DNA from: a virus
IMG/VR virus record: IMGVR_UViG_3300021092_000123
Span: 1 to 31,654 of that record
Length of the DNA stretch: 31,654 bases
Strand: one strand, 5' to 3'
Shown here: positions 701-25,079 of the stretch, piece after piece
Layout: every line of letters begins with the position of its first letter
Numbering within the stretch: position 1 is the stretch's first letter
Position numbers and translations under genes: made by a program
The notes under the pieces: model-generated
The model's input: only the letters and a program-made list of their open reading frames with translations
Told to the model about the DNA's origin: nothing
Databases searched by the model: none

Positions 701-1018
701 TTATTTTTCTCTAATAAGTAATTCACCTAAAACTTCCATACGACCTACTTGTCTTTGAAATTCATTTTGGTTCATATCTAAAGAAATACTTTTTAGAATT
801 TCATTAAATTCTTTTTTAGCAGCTTCTTTATCAAATTTACCATTTATAGCTTTTTTATAATAAGGTGCTTTTACATAAAAGTGATTATAGGTTAACATTG
901 CTAAACCACCTTTTTCTTTAGCTGTTTCAGCTATTTTAGCAGCACCTTTAGCACGTGTAGTAGCAAAATCTTCAAAAGTTTCTTTTGCTTCTTTTAATAT
1001 GTCAGTTAATTTAATCAT
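701..1018 (-). CDS. Small conserved phage protein with capsid-targeting-like N-terminus (105 aa)
   Basis: The frame is open to 1105, but I place the start at 1018. That ATG lies 5 bases after the stop of the preceding gene (stop at 1023), and the longer version would overlap that gene by 83 bases. The protein then begins MIKLTDILKEAKETF. Residues 1-11 match the layout of the T4 internal-protein targeting peptide MKTYQEFIAEA, with an L-K-E site at 8-10 followed by Ala. The rest is helical and Lys/Glu-rich. It has an Ala-rich stretch (TTRAKGAAKIAETAKEKGG, about 20-38) and a C-terminal helix with QNEFQRQVGRMEVLGELLI. I do not recognise a function. Packaging into the head is an inference from the N-terminus. 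Confidence 0.75.
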   Translation of the reverse strand: MIKLTDILKEAKETFEDFATTRAKGAAKIAETAKEKGGLAMLTYNHFYVKAPYYKKAINGKFDKEAAKKEFNEILKSISLDMNQNEFQRQVGRMEVLGELLIREK

Positions 1019-1022
1019 TTTA

Positions 1023-2489
1023 TTATTTTTTAACACAATTAGGATATCTTTTACCAAACATTTTTTTAAAACCTTTTTGGGTATATCCTTTCCAACATTT
1101 TTCATTTAATTTGCCAGGAGCATTTAATGTTTTATTTGTTTTAACATCTTTATTATATCCACAAGTACCTTCTTTTTTTACTTGGCCATATCCTGAACCA
1201 TATGGTACTGCTTTACCTGATTGTGGATTTGAAGTTTCTTTATTTAAAATTTTAGTCTTCTTTTTTGATGCTTCTTTACGTTTTTCAATATAATTTAATG
1301 CACGTTTTAATCTAGATTTCACCTCAGGGTCTTTAGCTTTACCATAAGCTGCTCTAACACGTTGATGAATTAAATTAATAACTTGTGATTTACGAGCATG
1401 TGGTTTAGCTTTGAATGATTTTTTAGCTAATGTATTTTTGATATCTTGAGCTGTTTTAAACTTAATACGGACAGTATCTTTTGGATTTTCGTCTGTATAT
1501 AAACGGCGATCAGATCCTTTTGGTTTTTTACCTGTACCTTTTTTGGGGTCTGGTTTTTTAGTGTTACCTTCTAAATATCCTTTTTTTACTGCTAATTTAG
1601 GATCATTAGTCCAAACATCAGATGCTTTATATCTAGTTTTTAATATCATATCTGCCTTATATGGCGGATAATTTTCATCTAATTTAGGAAGAGATTGATT
1701 TACTCTCTTTCCATCTAATATCTCTGTTGGTTTCATTATTATTTCATTCCAGAGATATGTTTTATTTTGTTGACATTCTATCCAGTTTCTACACAAATTA
1801 TTTTCATTATCTGGGAAAGAAAATCTAAATAAATTGGCAGCTTTGTGTCCTTTGTCTGTTGTTATTGATTTAACATCTGATTGGAATGCTGCTACTAAGT
1901 CACCTTTTAATTTTAGTAATATATTACTTTCAGGTTTAAAAAATTCTTTGAATTGTGTAGTAAATGTAGAAATAGGTATATGAATACCTTGAGAAATAGA
2001 ATCTACAATATTTTTATATCCTTCTTCTGTAGTATAATGATATGATACTACTTGAATATCATTACTTCCATAAGTGTCTTCAGTAAATTGTTCGTCTAAT
2101 AAAATATAAGGTTCAAGTGCTCCTCTTGAATAAAAAAATGCAATCTTATCATTATCAAAATTAACAATATATTTTTCAAATTCATCTTTTAAAGACCAAA
2201 CTCTATGATTTACAAAATCTTCAATGAAATCTAACACCATTTTTTTAGTTAACTGAGAAAATAATTCAGTTTCACTATAAAGTTGATATCCAAAATATTT
2301 ATTAACTAATTCTATTAATTGGTCATTATTACTTATTTGACCTCCTCTAACATCATACCCTTGGGATTGTAATGCTAAAAATTCTTTAGATATAGCTTCC
2401 CATTCGCTTATAGTATGAAAACTAGACTCGGGTCTATAGTAACCTCTTACAGGGAATACTTCATTTAGTATGTTTATTAAATTAATCAT
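1023..2489 (-). CDS. Multi-module protein: possible ADP-ribosyltransferase-like domain plus basic Cys-containing tail (488 aa)
   Basis: Residues 1-11 (MINLINILNEV) resemble a T4 capsid-targeting peptide with an L-N-E cleavage-type site at 8-10. Residues 13-36 contain RPESSFHTISEWEAI, which echoes RPESKAYFDLFNEA in the upstream neighbour. Residues 146-255 have the strand order of an ADP-ribosyltransferase fold: SYHYTTEEG at 149-157, STFTT at 174-178, ILLKLKGD at 190-197 and LWNEIIMKP at 246-254. H151 and E249 are candidate active-site residues. Residues 325-412 form a Lys/Arg-rich helical module containing INLIHQRVRAAYGKA and DPEVKSRLKRAL, which I recall from many phage proteins. The C-terminus (440-488) holds C443, C465 and C485 in CWKGYTQKGFKKMFGKRYPN-type sequence. 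The stop of the preceding gene and this start share one base (TAATG). The enzyme assignment is tentative. Confidence 0.6.
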   Translation of the reverse strand: MINLINILNEVFPVRGYYRPESSFHTISEWEAISKEFLALQSQGYDVRGGQISNNDQLIELVNKYFGYQLYSETELFSQLTKKMVLDFIEDFVNHRVWSLKDEFEKYIVNFDNDKIAFFYSRGALEPYILLDEQFTEDTYGSNDIQVVSYHYTTEEGYKNIVDSISQGIHIPISTFTTQFKEFFKPESNILLKLKGDLVAAFQSDVKSITTDKGHKAANLFRFSFPDNENNLCRNWIECQQNKTYLWNEIIMKPTEILDGKRVNQSLPKLDENYPPYKADMILKTRYKASDVWTNDPKLAVKKGYLEGNTKKPDPKKGTGKKPKGSDRRLYTDENPKDTVRIKFKTAQDIKNTLAKKSFKAKPHARKSQVINLIHQRVRAAYGKAKDPEVKSRLKRALNYIEKRKEASKKKTKILNKETSNPQSGKAVPYGSGYGQVKKEGTCGYNKDVKTNKTLNAPGKLNEKCWKGYTQKGFKKMFGKRYPNCVKK

Positions 2490-3265
2490 TACCAGAATCC
2501 TGAAAATGATGTTTTAAAGCCTAACAGCTTAGCATATCGTGGTAAACGACAGCTCCAATACGATGCCTTTGTTCTATCTTTCTTTTGAGGGCAATTATGG
2601 CGTTTAGAAAACGCTTGTCTTGCTTTTGAATTGTTTAATTTAGCACGTAATCCTGATGTGTCCCCAAATGATACTTTTTTAATTTTTTTCGTCTTAGGAT
2701 TCTTAACGTAAACATAGAATTTCTTAGAACCACCACGTTTTGGTTTTCCAATTGGTGGATCTTTTTTCTTTTCTTCTTCAGTTAAAAACTCGGCATCATC
2801 TAAGAATGGTAATCCTAAATGTATTGTTTTATTTTCAATAATTACTGAATGACCAATACCTGATTCAAGTAATTCTGCTTCTTCTTTAGTTACTTTTAGT
2901 AAACCTTCGTTATATAATTGTCTTGCTTCGTTAAATAAATCAAAATATGCTTTTGATTCAGGACGAAACACATTTTCAAATAAACTTAACTTATTTTTAA
3001 TATGGAAAGCTAAACCAGCTGAGATTTCATTTAAATCACCAGCGTATTCCATTTTTTCTTGTGTTGCCTTAATTAAATCTGAAAAGTGAAATGATTTTGT
3101 AGAACCATCACTTAATTTAATAGCGTAGAAGGGATGTTTAGCTAAAGTAATTTCACCTTCTTTACCGTCAGTAGTTTTTACTTTTTCACCTTCAGCAAAT
3201 TTTACATCTTCCTCTAAAAGACGTTCAATTTCTTCTCTAATTAAAACTTTTAATTCTACTGACAT
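2489..3265 (-). CDS. Modular phage protein with SH3-like N-terminal domain and SFGD...RHNC...YWSC C-terminal module (258 aa)
   Basis: The protein opens with a charged helix, MSVELKVLIREEIERLLEED, similar to the start of the gene at 24621-25079. Residues about 20-67 (EGEKVKTTDGKEGEITLAKH then YAIKLSDGSTKSF) look like a small KOW/SH3-type barrel. A middle region contains FENVFRPESKAYFDLFNEAR and ends in an acidic Lys/Glu stretch. The C-terminal 78 residues, from about 181, are strongly basic and contain VSFGD (198-202), RHNC (C225) and YWSC (C239). I recall this as a module recurring in unrelated proteins of marine phages. It may bind metal or nucleic acid, but two Cys plus His is thin evidence. 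Both ends overlap the neighbouring genes by one base, so translation is probably coupled. Confidence 0.65.
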   Translation of the reverse strand: MSVELKVLIREEIERLLEEDVKFAEGEKVKTTDGKEGEITLAKHPFYAIKLSDGSTKSFHFSDLIKATQEKMEYAGDLNEISAGLAFHIKNKLSLFENVFRPESKAYFDLFNEARQLYNEGLLKVTKEEAELLESGIGHSVIIENKTIHLGLPFLDDAEFLTEEEKKKDPPIGKPKRGGSKKFYVYVKNPKTKKIKKVSFGDTSGLRAKLNNSKARQAFSKRHNCPQKKDRTKASYWSCRLPRYAKLLGFKTSFSGFW

Positions 3266-3636
3266 TATTTTAAGAATTTTAACTTGTAAATAGTAGTATT
3301 AATTAACTCAGAAATCATATCTACTTGATTTTGCACATATGAGTCTTGAGGTAATTTATTTCTGTTTTGTTCAACATACATTGACAACGCAGTAAAATAA
3401 GCAATTATTTCTTCACATGAAATATACTCTCTTACTTGACCAGGAGCAGAATAACCTGTGATGATACCATTTTTACCTTGAATTGATTCAACAAGAGGAT
3501 CAATTATATCAATAATTTTTTCATAATAAGCAGCTAATGCTCTGTGAGCCGCATCAGATGGAGTCTGCCAATGATAAATGTGAGCTTGGTTTCTTGAGGC
3601 AAGTAAAGTTGAAAAAAATGCAGCTATAGGATTCAT
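3265..3636 (-). CDS. Dps/ferritin-like small phage protein (123 aa)
   Basis: The first helix carries LLASRNQAHIYHWQTPSDAA, followed by H31, a YYEKII helix, and D46 and E50 in IIDPLVES. This spacing of HW, His and D-x3-E resembles the ferroxidase-centre region of Dps/ferritin-like proteins, in which an HW pair starts the motif and a D-x3-E follows on the next part of the helix. Full-length Dps is about 165 residues, so this is short, with room for perhaps four helices. I believe it belongs to a phage family of unknown function (DUF5856-like, from memory). A Dps-like role would be iron handling or DNA protection, but that is an inference. The gene is coupled by one-base TAATG overlaps on both sides to modular proteins that may be virion-associated. 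Confidence 0.6.
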   Translation of the reverse strand: MNPIAAFFSTLLASRNQAHIYHWQTPSDAAHRALAAYYEKIIDIIDPLVESIQGKNGIITGYSAPGQVREYISCEEIIAYFTALSMYVEQNRNKLPQDSYVQNQVDMISELINTTIYKLKFLK

Positions 3637-4298
3637 TATTTTTTAATTTTTTCAGCTTCGTCTAATTTTTTTACTTCGTTTTCTAAAGCACCTTTTAATT
3701 TAGCTAATTCGGCTTCTTTTTTCTTTAAATCACCTAATAATTTTTCAGCATCAGCAAAGTGAGCATCACGAGTGCCAGGTTCAGACATAGCTGACTGCAT
3801 GTGATGTTCGATTTCTTGCTTAATTAAATTAATATCATCTTCAAGTTCAGCTGCTTTATTTTCACCTAATTTAAGATTTTCTCTCATTTGTTTTCTCATT
3901 TCGTTGATGAGTCTTTCACCAATTCTTTGAGCTTTATCAGCTGTTTTGTATAAACCAAATATATTATCAAAATCTAACCCACGTTTAAATAAATTAGCAA
4001 TGGTAAATAAATCACCTTCAGCTACAATATTTTCAACAGTTGAATCTTTAGTTGGGTTTTGTACAATAAAAAATGAACCCAATTGATCATCAATACCAAG
4101 GGCAGCAGTTGTTGGATCAACATTATCTTGTAATGCTTCTTTAATTTCTTTTGCAGCTTTAACCGCTTCGTTTTTTTCAACAGCGTATAATGCGGCTAAG
4201 TAGTCTTTAACTGCACCTTTAGTGCATCCTACTTTTTCCCCGCGTTTGCCATTTTCGTATTGTTTGTAAACACATTTACCGACTGATGTATAAGGCAT
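3636..4298 (-). CDS. Phage protein with N-terminal KCVYK...VGCT module and long coiled coil (220 aa)
   Basis: Residues 1-39 contain VGKCVYKQYENGKRGEKVGC, with C9 and C25, followed by TKGAVKDYLAALYA. I recall this small Cys module at the ends of many otherwise unrelated proteins of marine and Bacteroidota phages. Residues about 40-125 include GIDDQLGSFFIVQNPTKDST. From about 125 to the end the sequence is Glu/Lys/Leu-rich heptad-like helix (for example AELAKLKGALENEVKKLDEA), so a long coiled coil is likely. No enzyme motif is visible. The start lies after a 47-base gap with a TATTTATA-type motif, so this gene may begin a transcript running leftwards through at least the genes to 1023. The function is unknown. 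Confidence 0.7.
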   Translation of the reverse strand: MPYTSVGKCVYKQYENGKRGEKVGCTKGAVKDYLAALYAVEKNEAVKAAKEIKEALQDNVDPTTAALGIDDQLGSFFIVQNPTKDSTVENIVAEGDLFTIANLFKRGLDFDNIFGLYKTADKAQRIGERLINEMRKQMRENLKLGENKAAELEDDINLIKQEIEHHMQSAMSEPGTRDAHFADAEKLLGDLKKKEAELAKLKGALENEVKKLDEAEKIKK

Positions 4299-4308
4299 AA
4301 ATATTATT

Positions 4309-4336
4309 ATTTATTAGAGTATTTCTCTATATAAAT
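4309..4336 (-). other. Stem-loop in leader of the gene at 3636-4298
   Basis: On the coding strand ATTTAT-A-TAGAG pairs with CTCTA-ATAAAT around the five-base loop AAATA, giving 11 pairs with one bulged base. The stem overlaps the TATTTATA motif at 4330-4337. No T-run follows on the coding strand, so it is not an intrinsic terminator. It could be a leader structure, or only a consequence of the AT-rich composition. Confidence 0.25.
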
Positions 4337-4337
4337 A
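4330..4337 (-). promoter_or_regulatory. TATTTATA motif, 31 nt upstream of the gene at 3636-4298
   Basis: The coding strand reads GTATATTTATATAG here, and the plus strand reads TATAAATA exactly. The extended sequence is nearly identical to those at 15086-15093 and 22295-22302. TATATTTA also fits the TAnnTTT part of the Bacteroidota -7 promoter element. With 31 bases to the ATG, a transcription start downstream would leave a short leader. This is a promoter candidate by recurrence only. Confidence 0.4.
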
Positions 4338-4345
4338 TACAATAT

Positions 4346-4945
4346 TTAATAAAGGTAGCCAGAAAATACACCGGCTTCTACGTTAAGCGCGGTAATTTGC
4401 TCAGTATCTAATATAACTTTCTTTTTACAATAATCTAAACCTAAAACTCCAATAAATTTTCCATCAATGTTTTTAATAGCAAAATAATAACCCCCTTTAG
4501 TATTTGTTTCCGCAGCGGTATATTTTAATCCTAAATCATTAATATTTTCATTTTTAAAATCGAAAATAGCAAGATGTGTATTTTCTAATAAATAATTTGT
4601 AGATCTTGAAAATAACGATACTGGAATGTTTTGGAATATCATCTTTACAGATTCAGTATTTAATGTTAATACTTCATAAAACATACTAAATTTCTGTATT
4701 GATTTTCCTGAGGGGTAAAAATACCCTCCATTATGAAATTGGGTAATCCAAACTCTATCAGCTTTATACGTTTCCCTAATTTTTTCTAATTTAGTGTCAA
4801 TTTGACTATATAGTGCACATTGCTCTGCTATTGGATCTGTATTTTTTTCCTTTATTTTTTTAGTACGATTAATATAAAATTGAACTAATAAAGGACCTAA
4901 TATACCTGTTAAAAAGGCTGCTATTATTTCTGTAGAGTAAGTCAT
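4346..4945 (-). CDS. Membrane-anchored GAF-like protein (199 aa)
   Basis: An N-terminal hydrophobic helix (about residues 7-26, IIAAFLTGILGPLLVQFYIN) is followed by the basic stretch RTKKIKEK, which suggests a single anchor with the rest in the cytoplasm. After a short helix with TDPIAEQCALYSQIDTKLEK comes RVWITQFHNGGYFYPSGKS, about residues 64-82. The protein ends with strands YYFAIKNI and IGVLGLDYC. The order (RV-I-QFHNG, long helical insert, final paired strands) resembles GAF/PAS-like sensory domains. No ligand can be named. The gene sits between the zinc-ribbon gene and the Cys-module genes, with gaps of 17 and 47 bases. An alternative is a small membrane protein involved in lysis control or superinfection exclusion, for which I see no specific evidence. 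Confidence 0.55.
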   Translation of the reverse strand: MTYSTEIIAAFLTGILGPLLVQFYINRTKKIKEKNTDPIAEQCALYSQIDTKLEKIRETYKADRVWITQFHNGGYFYPSGKSIQKFSMFYEVLTLNTESVKMIFQNIPVSLFSRSTNYLLENTHLAIFDFKNENINDLGLKYTAAETNTKGGYYFAIKNIDGKFIGVLGLDYCKKKVILDTEQITALNVEAGVFSGYLY

Positions 4946-4952
4946 ATATAAA

Positions 4953-4960
4953 AATAAATA
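4953..4960 (-). promoter_or_regulatory. AT motif (AATAAATA on + strand), 7 nt before the gene at 4346-4945
   Basis: The coding strand reads AATATATTTATTTTTATAT just before the ATG, which gives ATATTTAT, a near match to the intergenic octamer. It is only 7 bases from the start codon, so it could act as a promoter only for a very short-leader or leaderless mRNA, or it may be an AU-rich translation signal instead. Confidence 0.25.
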
Positions 4961-4962
4961 TA

Positions 4963-5535
4963 TTAAATTGATTTATTCTTTAATTCCTGAATATATTCTT
5001 TTAGTTTAGTTACTTCATTTTTATTAACGGTTCCACCTCCCCAATTTTCAACATCTCCTGCTTCATTTACAAATGTATCTTTTACATTAGCCCACGCATC
5101 TATAGCTTCTAAAGTTTCATCTAGCACTGCATCTTTATTAGCATTTAATATATTACATTGATATTCTTCAAACTTACCTTCTTGACGTAATTTAGTTTCA
5201 TATTCAATTACACAATCAAAACATGTTTTGTGTATTGCCCACATTTCTTTATTATAGCGGTTATCTTTCATTGGACGACCACAATTAGGACATAAAAGGG
5301 GTAAAGTAACTAAACGTTTTAAAGTATCATACTTTGTAACAGTTTGTTTAATACCATTTTTAATAGTCCATTTCCTACCATTTTCTTCCCATATATCACC
5401 TTCAGTATGTTCTATTTGTGTTTTAGTATAACCTACCTGGGATTGGGTTTTACCACCTAAATCTCCAGTAATAAGATTTCTCATACGTTGAACATCACGT
5501 TGAGAAAATTCTCTTTTTAATTGTGATTCACTCAT
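4963..5535 (-). CDS. Zinc-ribbon phage protein of unknown function (190 aa)
   Basis: The sequence contains CPNCG (C82, C85) and CFDC (C105, C108), a four-Cys zinc-ribbon layout with about 19 residues between the two knuckles. The N-terminus (SQLKREFSQRDVQRMRNLIT) is a basic helix, and residues 44-68 (EGDIWEENGRKWTIKNGIKQ) form a short hairpin-like, aromatic segment. I recall proteins with this LKREFS-RDV-R-RN opening and the ribbon from many tailed phages, always as hypotheticals. The fold suggests binding to DNA, RNA or another protein, but no catalytic motif is visible. The start overlaps the HAD phosphatase stop? No: here this gene's ATG and the stop of the upstream gene at 5532 share ATGA (4-base overlap), indicating coupled translation with the phosphatase. 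Confidence 0.7.
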   Translation of the reverse strand: MSESQLKREFSQRDVQRMRNLITGDLGGKTQSQVGYTKTQIEHTEGDIWEENGRKWTIKNGIKQTVTKYDTLKRLVTLPLLCPNCGRPMKDNRYNKEMWAIHKTCFDCVIEYETKLRQEGKFEEYQCNILNANKDAVLDETLEAIDAWANVKDTFVNEAGDVENWGGGTVNKNEVTKLKEYIQELKNKSI

Positions 5536-6047
5536 AAACCTAATTCTTTAAGTTGCGAAATAGTGTCGCTGGCACTTTTATGATGGATACCAATTCCACC
5601 TTTTTCTCTCCACATAACAATATTTGGTTCTAATCTATCATCTATTAATATTTTCCCTTCACCTGATTGATCTGCTTTGCGTTCTGGAGAAGCTAAGATT
5701 AATTTAGTTCCTGGTAGATATTTTTTAACCCACAAACGCTTACCTAAACGGCTTGATTCTGAAGCTGATGGTGATGATAATAAAATAGGATTATATTTTT
5801 TAATATAGTCCCAAAGTTGATGTCCATCTGGCATCCAAGGAATACCAACCCAGAATTTAACACCTATGTTGTTATCGATTTGATTCCAAAATGCTCTTTT
5901 ACCATACTTTGCTTCGTACTCTTGAGGAGGGATTCCAAAAAAATGGTCAAAACGTGCTTCAAAATCAGCAATAACGCCATCCATATCACAATAAATTTGA
6001 TATGGGGTAATGCCTTCTACTTCTAATATGTTTTTTAAACTTATCAT
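5532..6047 (-). CDS. HAD-family phosphatase, 5'(3')-deoxyribonucleotidase-like (171 aa)
   Basis: The HAD motifs are in order: YCDMDGVIADF with the nucleophile D21 and acid/base D23, LLSSPS (about 89-94) as motif II, K124 in the ERKADQSGEG stretch, and ILIDDR with D136-D137 as the metal-binding motif IV. Size and motif spacing fit the 5'(3')-deoxyribonucleotidase branch, which dephosphorylates deoxynucleoside monophosphates. T4-like phages often carry such enzymes. The N-terminus MISLKNILEVEG precedes the catalytic core by about ten residues and looks like a capsid-targeting peptide, with I-L-E at 7-9. The gene overlaps by 4 bases (ATGA) with the second HAD gene upstream and with the zinc-ribbon gene downstream. 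Substrate is inferred from family resemblance only. Confidence 0.85.
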   Translation of the reverse strand: MISLKNILEVEGITPYQIYCDMDGVIADFEARFDHFFGIPPQEYEAKYGKRAFWNQIDNNIGVKFWVGIPWMPDGHQLWDYIKKYNPILLSSPSASESSRLGKRLWVKKYLPGTKLILASPERKADQSGEGKILIDDRLEPNIVMWREKGGIGIHHKSASDTISQLKELGL

Positions 6048-6934
6048 AACTCAAATACCATCGGATTTTTCTGTCCATAATTTCTCATTAATACACCTGC
6101 TAAAGCATTTGCTTCATTCTCTACTGGTGAGCCCGTTTGGCCTGAAGACATATCAAGTTTATTAAGTTGCATCTGTTGAGCATGAACCATTTCGTGAGCT
6201 AATGTTCTTAATATATCAGCTAATCCTCTTCCTTTAATTACTATAGCAATTTTGTTTTGCATTGGTTGGTATCCACCAAAACTTTTAAATTGTTGAGTAA
6301 AATTAGGAGAATTAATAACATGTACTTTAGGAACATCTTTTAATTGAAGTTCATTTGATGCAAAATTAACAAAATCTTTCATAGTGTGAAAGAAATTAGG
6401 AGCATATTCTTTAATAATGTTTTCTTGTAAACGTTTTTTATTTAAATAATTTTTCCAATAATTTTCTTTTAACATACCTAATTGCTTAATAATTTGATTA
6501 GCATTATTTTGAAATAAATACGATATTCCTCCTTCTATTTCCCAATCAGCCACATTATCGGGACGATCATCAATTAAAATATTACCTCCCTTAGCGTATT
6601 TCTTTTTCGCTGATTTATTATTAACAAATATGATTTCTTTAAGGTAAGGAGATAAACCATTCTTTTTTAACCATTCAAGTTTACCTTGTTTTGTTCGTTC
6701 ATTTGTTCCCGCTGCTGATAATATTGATGGTTCTTTATCTTTAACAGTGTTAAATATTTTCATTCCCTCAGGGATTGGTTTTAAATTAGACCACCACTCC
6801 TCAGGATTACTATTAATTTTATTCCAAATAGCTTTGCCATCATCCTCAGATACACCTAATTGTTTAGCAGTATCTTTCAAACCACCTTTATAGTCTGCTA
6901 ATAAACCATCCATATCAAGATAAATCTGTGGCAT
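6044..6934 (-). CDS. Fusion of HAD phosphatase and HExxH metallopeptidase (296 aa)
   Basis: Residues 1-150 are a second HAD domain: YLDMDGLLADY (D7, D9), SAAGTNE at 73-79, a Lys-rich stretch at 107-112 and ILIDDR (D122, D123). Residues about 170-296 form a zinc peptidase-like domain with TLAHEMVHAQQ (H247, E248, H251) and a downstream ENEANALAG helix whose E272 or E274 could be the third zinc ligand. This is the layout of a gluzincin-type minimal metallopeptidase, often seen as a stand-alone phage protein. The linker contains ENIIKEYAPNF, whose I-K-E resembles a prohead-protease site or the start of a once-separate peptidase. Both active sites look intact. The gene overlaps the kinase gene by one base (TAATG). 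Substrates are unknown. Confidence 0.8.
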   Translation of the reverse strand: MPQIYLDMDGLLADYKGGLKDTAKQLGVSEDDGKAIWNKINSNPEEWWSNLKPIPEGMKIFNTVKDKEPSILSAAGTNERTKQGKLEWLKKNGLSPYLKEIIFVNNKSAKKKYAKGGNILIDDRPDNVADWEIEGGISYLFQNNANQIIKQLGMLKENYWKNYLNKKRLQENIIKEYAPNFFHTMKDFVNFASNELQLKDVPKVHVINSPNFTQQFKSFGGYQPMQNKIAIVIKGRGLADILRTLAHEMVHAQQMQLNKLDMSSGQTGSPVENEANALAGVLMRNYGQKNPMVFEL

Positions 6935-7674
6935 TACTTAAGAAATCCTTTTAATTTAGTTGCTAATTCATCAAATGCCACAAAGTTAGCATCTTCAGTT
7001 TTATCAATAAGTGTTTGAATACGTGCCTCAATTTTCTTCTTATCTTCCTCGGGTATGTCTTTCCAGATTTTAGATTTTTCAAATAATGATTCTACATCTT
7101 CTAGGTTAAAGCTTTTATTAGCACCTTGAGGATCATTATCTACTAAAGCAAAATGATCAGCATCAAATAGTTGTGAATATAAATCAACATTTTTAATTAC
7201 ATCTTCCCAGTTTCTAATTACAATACCTGGATCTAGTGATCTGTCTCTACTCATATTGCGAGATAAAGTAGTATATGGTGAAGCATATAATAAAACCATC
7301 ATTACATCATAACCTTGTTTTTCTAGTTTTTCCTTTGTTTCCTTTACCTTTTTAAAGCTACCACCTGTAATATCTAAAATAACTGGTTTTGTACCAATTG
7401 CTTTTTCTAATTCAGATCTGTATTGTTTTACAGCTACCGCTTGTGCTTTTGCTGCTGCTGATAATTGTTCAGGTGAAAAATCTTTCATATTCATTGAACC
7501 ACCACCAATTTTGGCTAATTCTGGTTCGTAGAATTTATCAGGATTTAACACATATTTTTGATATTCAGTAGGAATAACAGATTTAACAAATGTCGACTTA
7601 CCCACGTTAGATGGTCCAGCAATCAACACTGCTTTTAAATCTTTCTGTGCTTCCTTAATAACTTTTAATTTCAT
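6934..7674 (-). CDS. P-loop kinase, zeta-toxin/polynucleotide-kinase-like (246 aa)
   Basis: A Walker A motif, GPSNVGKST, lies at residues 20-28, followed by NPDKFYE (about 44-50), a Walker B-like VILDITGG (D101) and an Arg-rich segment SRNMSRDR (138-145) that could be the lid. This is the order of small-molecule and nucleic-acid kinases of the zeta-toxin/PNK group. The phosphate acceptor cannot be read from the sequence. The first residues MKLKVIKEAQ sit just before the first strand and resemble a capsid-targeting peptide with I-K-E at 6-8. This is the first gene after the terminator at 7692-7721, so it probably starts a transcript that continues into the two HAD genes. Kinase plus phosphatase suggests nucleotide or nucleic-acid end processing. 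Confidence 0.8.
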   Translation of the reverse strand: MKLKVIKEAQKDLKAVLIAGPSNVGKSTFVKSVIPTEYQKYVLNPDKFYEPELAKIGGGSMNMKDFSPEQLSAAAKAQAVAVKQYRSELEKAIGTKPVILDITGGSFKKVKETKEKLEKQGYDVMMVLLYASPYTTLSRNMSRDRSLDPGIVIRNWEDVIKNVDLYSQLFDADHFALVDNDPQGANKSFNLEDVESLFEKSKIWKDIPEEDKKKIEARIQTLIDKTEDANFVAFDELATKLKGFLK

Positions 7675-20788: not shown

Positions 20789-21132
20789 TAACCTGCCCTA
20801 TTTATCGTCAAATCTAAAATTGTTTTATTTGCATCAAGAAGTTCTTGTCTTAATGAGTTAATTTCTTCTAATAACCCATTTACTTCATTATTTTGAACTG
20901 TTGCCCCAATATATTCAGAACTTCTAGTTACTAAATAAGTGTGAGAATTAATATCTCCTTCTATTGGAATTTCATAAAATAAATTATCATATGCTTCAAA
21001 AAACTCGGGCACTGTAAGTGCTTGTGGGGGTGGAGCAGCAGGTGGAATTAATTGATTAAAAGTAGTATCTACAACTTGAGGATATAAACCTCTTCCATAT
21101 ACCTTTTTAGTTAATTGAACTTCTTGACTCAT
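20788..21132 (-). CDS. Small baseplate-region protein with C-terminal coiled coil (114 aa)
   Basis: The protein has a Pro-rich segment (LIPPAAPPPQALTVPEFFEA, about residues 28-47), a short region with YDNLFYEIPIEGDINSHTYL, and a C-terminal helix with NGLLEEINSLRQELLDANKT that looks like a coiled coil for oligomerisation. I do not recognise a named family. It lies between the DNRLRE-like protein and the 1892-residue protein, linked to both by one-base TAATG overlaps, so strict co-expression with those two is likely. It is presumably a small tail component or connector. Confidence 0.65.
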   Translation of the reverse strand: MSQEVQLTKKVYGRGLYPQVVDTTFNQLIPPAAPPPQALTVPEFFEAYDNLFYEIPIEGDINSHTYLVTRSSEYIGATVQNNEVNGLLEEINSLRQELLDANKTILDLTINRAG

Positions 21133-24194: not shown

Positions 24195-24621
24195 TTAATG
24201 TGGCATTTTGGAATGTTACTTGAATTTCATCTTCTATGTTAGTCAATGCTACTGAATAGCGAAAATATATTTGGATTGTGTTATTATCATAAAGAGGAGT
24301 TATTTCTAAATTTTCAACTATAATGTTTGGAAAGTAAATAGCAATTTCATTTGAAACCATCTGTTTTAATTCACTAGTAGAAGAAGTAGTGATTTGTTCA
24401 AATAACATACCTCTTATGCCTGATCCAAAATTAGGATTAAATACTCTTTCTCTATTATCAGTTAAAAAATAATTAAGTAAATTAGATTTTATAGCTTCTT
24501 GAGTAGTAAATGTTTGATTAATACCTGTTGGACCATCAAAAGGTAAAGAAATACCTACTCCAGTGCTTGGTCTTTTATTACCATCTAGGTTATTACGAAA
24601 TATGTAATTTACAGCGGGCAT
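24181..24621 (-). CDS. 25: Baseplate wedge/sheath initiator, T4 gp25-like (146 aa)
   Basis: The gp25/GPW family core is visible: QTFTTQEAIKSNLLNYFLT followed by NRERVFNPNFGSGIR (about 56-70), which corresponds to the conserved E-R-x-x-x-P-x-F-G segment. A later VENLEITPLYDNNTI and strand-rich end fit the family. T4 gp25 is 132 residues, so the length agrees. The protein joins the baseplate to the first sheath ring and templates sheath assembly. It overlaps gp6 by 14 bases and shares a TAATG junction with the 152-residue gene upstream. This gp25-gp6 order is standard in contractile-tailed phages. Confidence 0.9.
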   Translation of the reverse strand: MPAVNYIFRNNLDGNKRPSTGVGISLPFDGPTGINQTFTTQEAIKSNLLNYFLTDNRERVFNPNFGSGIRGMLFEQITTSSTSELKQMVSNEIAIYFPNIIVENLEITPLYDNNTIQIYFRYSVALTNIEDEIQVTFQNATLNANI

Positions 24622-25079
24622 TATAGTTTACCTTTTTCTTTTAAAGCGCCCATCATTTTACTAAAATCAGGAACGGCATTGATTTGAACTTGATTAATAT
24701 CAGCTGAAGGGCGAGCAGTTGCCATCATTTGATCAACTGATTCTACGGCAGGAGCTCCACCAAATGCGGACATCATTTCAGCACGATAACTATTAATATT
24801 ATTTGAATCAAAATTACCTATTGATTTCCATTCTTCACCACCTGCAACCATGCTCATTTTTGTTTCATTAATTAAATCGAGCATTGGGTTACCTGTAGAT
24901 TCAACCATAGGTTGTTTAATTTTATGATCCATTTCTTCAAATAAACCACTAAAAGCACGACCTGGTTTAGCTACCCCTTTAGGTTGTTCAATAACTTCAG
25001 TAAGTAAAGATGGTAATTCTTCACGAAGCGCGCGTTTTACCTCTTCTCTTATTAATTTTCTAAATGTTTCGACTTTCAT
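24621..25079 (-). CDS. Small charged helical protein in the baseplate cluster (152 aa)
   Basis: It begins with the strongly charged amphipathic helix VETFRKLIREEVKRALREEL, similar to the start of the gene at 2489-3265 (LKVLIREEIERLLEED). Next come KPGRAFSGLFEEMDHKIKQP and a segment NPMLDLINETKMSM, then a Met/Ala-rich stretch and a basic end (SKMMGALKEKGKL). No enzyme motif or membrane segment is visible. Its place directly before gp25 suggests a baseplate component or assembly chaperone. The similar N-terminus in block 5 leaves open a head-targeting role, but position argues against it. I cannot name a family. Confidence 0.6.
   Translation of the reverse strand: MKVETFRKLIREEVKRALREELPSLLTEVIEQPKGVAKPGRAFSGLFEEMDHKIKQPMVESTGNPMLDLINETKMSMVAGGEEWKSIGNFDSNNINSYRAEMMSAFGGAPAVESVDQMMATARPSADINQVQINAVPDFSKMMGALKEKGKL

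Follow-up and report, generated by a model that had tools for sequence, protein, structure and literature searches.

According to passages of a review of phage T4, the first ten residues of the internal protein IPIII are enough for targeting, and the prohead protease gp21 cleaves after L/I-X-E. Residues 4 and 7 of this capsid-targeting sequence (CTS) matter to targeting and residues 8 and 10 to processing, and Asp at position 10 prevents processing, targeting being still possible. In the T4 record, IPII and IPIII start with MKTYQEFIAE and gp24 with MAKINELLRE, that is with hydrophobic residues at positions 4, 7 and 8 and Glu at position 10, a register that can be written φ-x-x-φ-φ-x-E (φ, hydrophobic residue). 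Here, we analysed the 31,654 bases of the IMG/VR virus record IMGVR_UViG_3300021092_000123, hereafter the window, in which a first-pass annotation had pointed to four proteins beginning with a short leader that ends in [I/L]-x-E. All four N-termini were found, all on the minus strand. The same annotation had ascribed the start MKTYQEFIAE to the T4 internal proteins, which is correct for IPII and IPIII and incorrect for IPI (MKTFKEFTST). Judged on their sequences, the leaders are probably capsid-targeting propeptides of the T4 kind that would deliver enzymes. They form part of a portable N-terminal tag set that is widespread among T4-like relatives of Flavobacterium phage immuto.

The window comes from a T4-like myovirus whose closest annotated complete relatives are Microcystis phage Mel-JY01 (47.8%) and immuto (47.0%), as measured on one baseplate protein. 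Gene starts in unannotated contigs were taken from a simple in-house caller and some genes were clipped. The patterns that define the leader classes (A, B and C below) were written after viewing immuto N-termini, so that class counts are descriptive.

Leaders of the window and the T4 register

Two of the four leaders have Glu at residue 10, as had been claimed, and match IPIII at residues 4, 7, 8 and 10 (L4, I7, L8, E10). These are MIKLTDILKE, followed by A, on the 105-aa protein (leader 989–1018, gene 701–1018), and MINLINILNE, followed by V, on the 488-aa protein (leader 2460–2489, gene 1023–2489). The HAD/5'-deoxyribonucleotidase-like protein of 171 aa (gene 5532–6047) begins with MISLKNILE, then V (6021–6047), its Glu at residue 9 being one residue off the T4 register; the P-loop kinase (gene 6934–7674) begins with MKLKVIKE, then A (7651–7674), with Glu at residue 8 in a shortened register. 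At the 105-aa gene the longest open reading frame codes for 134 aa; the start at 1018 was retained because it is placed after an upstream stop and is used by relatives. Homologues of this protein keep a leader (MRLLELLRE, MVKLIHLLTE, MIKFSNILNE, MKLKDILIE).

The loosest pattern covering all four leaders has no E-specificity over whole genomes (34 E-ending and 32 L-ending starts, n=1668 proteins). Such a pattern proves little alone and was replaced by a test requiring no E and by tests of the T4 register. It also leaves room for a reading by chance, in which AT-rich codons and helical N-termini would favour strings of Met, Lys, Leu, Ile and Glu and the likeness to T4 would be accidental. The strict register, with E at residues 9–12, occurs at 75/1668 N-termini of seven relatives against 60/5698 internal Met (1.05%), and at 1/220 N-termini of three control phages. 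It is found in 5 of the 31 window genes (binomial p 1.8e-5) and in 3 of the 10 genes of the leader block (701, 1023 and 2489; p 1.3e-4); of these five, the ones at 21132 and 24621 sit among baseplate genes. When the hydrophobic part was fixed and no E required, with one protein per body cluster and signal-like starts excluded, E stood at +2 in 19 of 34 cases, at +3 in seven and at +1 in one, with D at +1 or +2 in none; beyond residue 30, the same hydrophobic pattern had E at +2 in 48/484. The leader prefix was found at 195/3002 N-termini and 6/10388 internal Met.

The register was further compared between residues 8–24 and the sequence beyond residue 40 in the seven relatives, with one protein per body cluster (1010 proteins). 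The density ratio was 3.64 for E as the final residue, 1.05 for D, 1.42 for K, 1.36 for Q, 2.11 for A, 1.91 for S and 1.82 for T; that for Leu was also high (3.19), an excess that we put down, on presumption only, to signal peptides. Among sixteen spacings that of T4 gave the highest ratio (3.81). Elsewhere the ratio was 1.67 in Mel-JY01 and 0.64 in three Cellulophaga phages of other groups, which thus show no enrichment. Typical members of the other leader classes of the relatives, counted back from Glu, are in register as well (NFDLKKFLVE, MKKSELRQIIKE, RMQKLAGIITE). Given the internal-Met, shuffled, residue-swap and spacing controls, and the leader swaps and graft junction reported below, an accidental likeness appears very improbable.

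A lineage dialect (Leu at residue 3 or 4) was also considered. Agreement within contigs was 176/219 against a shuffled mean of 115 at first; once related contigs were merged and one protein per body was kept it fell to 101/176 against 88.3, with 237/5000 shuffles as high. The signal is weak and is not relied on.

Two further starts had been set aside by the first-pass annotation as weaker and possibly mere charged helices, and both fit the register better than those of the kinase and the HAD protein. MSVELKVLIRE (3233–3265), of class C, has E11 and opens a 258-aa protein (gene 2489–3265). The start MKVETFRKLIRE (25044–25079), with E12, opens a 152-aa protein (gene 24621–25079) and stays doubtful, since baseplate genes surround it and it may be a mere amphipathic helix. 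Next to the former lies a DUF5856 protein (3265–3636), which is off register in the window; its relatives L012 and L013 start with MNPLAAFLSILFE-A, in register, and a similar start belongs to a protein near gp21 in G031, G044 and G048.

Portability of the leaders and their carriers

The first residues of protein pairs from different body clusters were compared in the seven genomes; clustering by single linkage had over-merged the bodies (largest cluster 419) and was redone with a coverage rule. Similar N-termini on non-homologous bodies occurred in 578/1388355 pairs, as against 20/926672 for internal Met and 46/1388355 for shuffled starts. Besides the leaders, the groups sharing an N-terminus contain Sec signal peptides and a tail-fibre start; the method thus detects several kinds of N-terminal signal. 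In all, 339 proteins with a leader pattern fall into 138 body clusters, nine of which carry more than one leader class, some of these probably being clustering artefacts. Roughly, six groups contain a leaderless homologue starting at the boundary and seven a swap, although the groups are over-merged, one of them holding 57 leadered proteins.

Three bodies were inspected by eye for leader swaps. The body CxRIAxRKYDKPSAY stands behind MIKL[AS]DILCE at four loci, behind a class C-like leader in G001 and immuto, and behind a bare NLNE in three others; the body DEVGKFFVV is preceded by class A or class C leaders; and the body GTLYHYT is preceded by MIKLLDILRE or MKKSELKQIIKE. A synonymous-site comparison of the leader DNA was uninformative, the leader being too short. 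Scans of 106 leadered proteins against Pfam and PHROG returned few known families.

The 488-aa protein shows how a leader is joined to its body. For residues 11–265 (1695–2459), 101 relatives were recovered among 153 candidate stretches, and the best 80 loci, not deduplicated (67 distinct complete proteins), were used. At 71/80 loci a free protein (MYPVRGYxKPE) begins at the leader boundary, 2–6 positions ahead of the residue aligned with V14; elsewhere this part thus forms a free-standing phage protein of about 256 aa. A leader of class A, or one similar to it, is present at three loci (L152, the window's sibling; L153, MKIRIIKE; L231, MIKLKNIISE), and the proteins of the remaining six are extended otherwise at the N-terminus, by 8–13 residues. 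The junction indicates that a complete protein has gained or lost the leader at the predicted cleavage point, and a cut after E10 would nearly restore the free protein's own N-terminus. The C-terminal modules (1023–1694) also recur directly behind leaders, at L030 4917 (MIKLRDILNE) and G001 37931 (MIKLLDLLRE), as read by eye; in addition, the module CWKGYTQKGFKKMFGKRYPNCVKK and the segment preceding it recur on other leadered proteins. The expectation that the leader is conserved separately from the domain in homologues is thus borne out by the swaps and by the 71/80 junction loci, and the leader is very likely a portable N-terminal signal.

The first-pass annotation had listed a possible ADP-ribosyltransferase (ART) among the carriers. 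In the AlphaFold2 model of the 488-aa core (43 sequences) the predicted local distance difference test score (pLDDT) is 87.6, the leader being an uncertain helix. Neither a Pfam match up to E 1 nor a Foldseek match to the model at E≤0.001 was obtained; a second look at residues 132–284 with VIA-align ranked ADP-ribosyltransferases high, with low Z (best 4.5, for Scabin, and many PARP rows at about 3). In the 43 sequences H151, S174 and T175 are nearly invariant and E249 is invariant; H151, S174/T175 and E249 would fit the H, S/T and E of an ART active site. An ART-like fold for residues 132–284 is possible, and the identification is weak.

The kinase and the phosphatase-type HAD protein were assigned by sequence family. 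The best Pfam matches of the kinase, a P-loop protein, are AAA_33 and Zeta_toxin, both below the curated cut-offs. In its family, defined by the P-loop pattern, 38 of the 39 distinct N-termini carry a leader and the 39th is a short start call; 31 of these leaders are in exact register, six are other [IL]xE forms and one (MNILLE) has its Glu too near the start. The 171-aa HAD protein had no Pfam match at E≤0.1 and matches the PHROG family of 5'-3' deoxyribonucleotidases (phrog_2643, E 1.3e-25). In its family, defined by a domain pattern, 42/43 distinct N-termini have at least 8 aa ahead of the domain, all 42 with φ-x-E within the first 17 residues, and L086 starts at the domain. The window encodes a second HAD protein (6044–6934), fused to a putative metallopeptidase-like C-terminal part and devoid of any leader.

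No Pfam family scored above its cut-off for either the 105-aa or the 488-aa protein. The body of the former (701–988) is a small protein kept upstream of the immuto head genes (67% identity to immuto 112261–112575); that homologue (L005:12261–12575) is publicly annotated as tRNA(Ile2) agmatinyltransferase TiaS, probably a misannotation. Amphipathic leaders also occur ahead of GGGFKPPTKGH in NMNAT/NadR-like proteins of up to 1337 aa (L040, L021, L023, L068, L074, G002:6421 and others), the enzyme class to which the NMNAT reported from cyanophage virions also belongs. In G002, an IMG/VR contig of 268,739 bases, at about 124–184 kb, and in L133–L136, dozens of small, mostly unrelated proteins share recurrent starts (MKIIITESQ, MKKVVRLTESDLxRIVKRVIKEE, MRKFVITE, MNLQENIxRIKEMMG), possibly further leader classes with IITE-S sites.

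Head genes, virion proteomes and alternative readings

The gene order of the window resembles that of immuto, with baseplate, fibres, GIY-YIG, primase and exonuclease followed by the leader block, after which immuto has terminase, portal, gp21-type protease, scaffold and major capsid protein (MCP). The window is a 31.7-kb fragment that ends before the head genes; the gp21-like protease that had been expected elsewhere in the genome was found in relatives, namely in 10/24 related records, whose completeness is not established, and in 10/29 records of homologues of the 488-aa body, the others of which may be fragments. The gp21 pro-segment contains [LI]-x-E with S or G as the next residue in 8/8 cases and the MCP starts with a φ-x-E segment in 9/12 (e.g. 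MEVNQLLE-S, MSQIQSLLE-S). Of 22 class A leaders, 19 are no more than 30 kb away from gp21 and, with all classes together, clustering near gp21 is significant in 5/7 genomes (p 0.0003 to 0.034; contigs taken as circular). Small genes of class B or B-like adjoin gp21 in immuto, G004, G005 and G007, and a class A gene adjoins it, or is at most two genes away, in G031, G044 and G048. Around 79 loci of 488-aa homologues, 50/672 genes match a leader pattern.

Virion proteomes of other T4-like phages bear on the same point. Passages of PMC10665884 list 52 virion proteins for the T4-like cyanophage S-CREM2. Among its 219 coding sequences the register with E10 occurs in six, five of which are in the virion list: a SAM hydrolase (MKDFDSFLEE), ORF13 (MKDLHSFLTE), an APH-like kinase (MKRFDAFLTE, GTG start), ORF136 (MQTFSMFFSE) and a cytidylyltransferase (MKNFSSFLTE). 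Detection was 5/6 against 21/187 for other non-structural proteins when 26 named structural or lysis proteins were excluded (p 1.7e-4; p 0.003 over all proteins), values that are not fully blind since 30 S-CREM2 N-termini had been viewed beforehand. Control endings gave 0/1 for D and 0/2 for K. The authors caution, in the same passages, that such enzymes could merely be abundant during infection; the shared leader argues against this. Another protein in the virion list, the Cas9-like nuclease gp12 (L242:7704–10313), carries RFASFMAE-A within its sequence, not far from the N-terminus, and this stretch fits the CTS register with E25.

The pattern was applied without change to S-SCSM1 (plus strand, with its five minus-strand genes checked as well) and to T4 (both strands), and the matches were compared by eye with the annotation. 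In T4 the annotated register starts are gp24, Alt, IPII, IPIII and gp61.1, the first four of these five being packaged or gp21-cut head proteins. The gp61.1 protein (L247, NC_000866, 18966–19130; 54 aa), annotated as hypothetical, starts with MKTFKEFIKEDM, close to the IP capsid-targeting sequence. For S-SCSM1, 48 virion marks were taken from the record, the paper giving 45.

Several results count against a role of the leaders in head import. Only one of the three S-SCSM1 register proteins is marked as virion, the NMNAT reported in virions (MKSFLQFLKE); SSCSM1_30 (MKTFKQFMSE) and RecA are without the mark. With E relaxed to residues 9–12, detection in S-CREM2 drops to 5/10 (p 0.005 with structural proteins excluded, 0.06 over all). 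In G004 and G002 the clustering of all classes around gp21 falls short of significance (p 0.16 and 0.64), the MCPs of Mel-JY01 (MDIKNILTS) and of G031 and G048 (MDLKKLMNG) have no N-terminal φ-x-E Glu, and control phages also have pairs with shared N-termini (5/24082). Leaderless homologues of the 488-aa body live in gp21-bearing phages beside leadered neighbours, and the records that hold the other two leadered copies yielded no gp21 match (L153 and L231; G025, 102 kb, and G050, 64 kb). Packaging of the 488-aa protein would then be optional, and a prediction that leaderless homologues occur only where gp21 is absent proved wrong. Finally, the window kinase and HAD starts hold [IL]-x-E alone, outside the exact register. 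The claim of a common T4-like sorting leader on unrelated proteins is strongly supported by the IPIII/gp24 register, the portability and the swaps, the gp21-type protease of relatives and the virion data from another T4-like phage; the exact register does not extend to these two starts.

The class C register is also present on the terminase and, as a conserved start, on a protein encoded among the baseplate genes, and the leaders can be read as amphipathic helices as well. Their destination might therefore be a different assembly site (tail, membrane-bound prohead base or replication compartment), Glu being part of a docking helix. We consider this unlikely in view of the E-specificity and T4 spacing, the presence of φ-x-E in gp21 and in most of the MCPs that these genomes encode, the leaders on head-operon proteins of relatives and the virion detection in S-CREM2; the prohead core is the likely destination. 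A further point of difficulty is the residue after the Glu (P1'), which is frequently bulky (I in 6/20). Such bulky residues after some of the leaders, and the targeting still permitted by Asp at position 10 in T4, would suit leaders that reach the prohead core and stay uncut, or proteins associated with the scaffold only that leave before DNA packaging, so that nothing is injected. The retention of E over D and the kinases and NMNAT-like enzymes reported in cyanophage virion proteomes make this an improbable outcome, less credible than another assembly site. Removal of the leader after Glu seems fairly probable, and injection of the cargo into the host is favoured somewhat.

Proposed role and comparison with known systems

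We propose that T4-kind head import by the leaders would proceed as follows. During head assembly, the first 8–12 residues, with hydrophobic residues at -6, -3 and -2 from Glu, would dock their carrier onto the prohead core; the gp21-type protease would cut after φ-x-E and free the mature protein inside the head, from which it would be ejected with the DNA into the next host. Since unrelated proteins including a kinase and a phosphatase bear a tag that closely resembles the head tag of T4, the phage probably ships ready-made enzymes with its DNA, and any protein could turn into cargo by acquiring the tag. A broader proposal, for and against which we see about equal grounds, is that a single head-import code φ-x-x-φ-φ-x-E is common to T4-like phages far beyond T4, with lineage dialects and several leader classes, some genomes (e.g. 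G002, 268.7 kb) carrying dozens of tagged, unrelated and mostly unknown early effectors.

If this is correct, a ten-residue signature would predict, from sequence, the head-carried proteins that T4-like phages deliver at time zero, and many unknown small genes of uncultured aquatic phages would become candidate injected effectors and counter-defence proteins. It would also explain the recurrence of kinases and NMNAT-like enzymes in cyanophage virions and offer natural cargo tags for Bacteroidetes phages. Searches of the open-access literature (subscription papers and preprints being outside its scope) returned, in the passages covered, capsid-targeting work for T4, P1 and giant phages and none on these leaders; the leader strings gave no match, and capsid targeting combined with cyanophage gave passages of the T4 review alone.

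Compared with described systems, similar enzyme classes are found in the virions of S-CREM2 and S-SCSM1, whose kinase and NMNAT/cytidylyltransferase have starts in T4 register; their leaders are in a cyanophage dialect, and the S-CREM2 kinase is APH-like whereas that of the window is a P-loop kinase. The passages covered of the cyanophage virion papers do not mention a leader. The polyvalent proteins described in parts of PMC5512222 (2017) are likewise predicted injected early effectors with similar domains, ART and peptidase among them; those are defined by a multidomain architecture, the proteins described here by their leader. T4 Alt, an injected ADP-ribosyltransferase whose start is in register, is described as packaged with a short propeptide at its N-terminus, 7 residues long according to passages of the T4 review, so that Alt is not cut at E10; the ART identity of the 488-aa protein is, by comparison, weak. 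The closest system is the CTS of IPI, IPII and IPIII together with the gp24 propeptide, cut by gp21, which shares with these leaders the N-terminal position, a length of about 10 aa, hydrophobic residues 4, 7 and 8, Glu 10 (IPI deviating), [LI]-x-E and the presence on unrelated bodies. Its register is that of the 105-aa and 488-aa proteins, appears in shifted form in the 2489 gene and is not that of the window kinase and HAD starts. The leaders differ from it in reading L..LLKE rather than Y..FIAE, and in forming several classes per genome, on enzymes and on dozens of body families.

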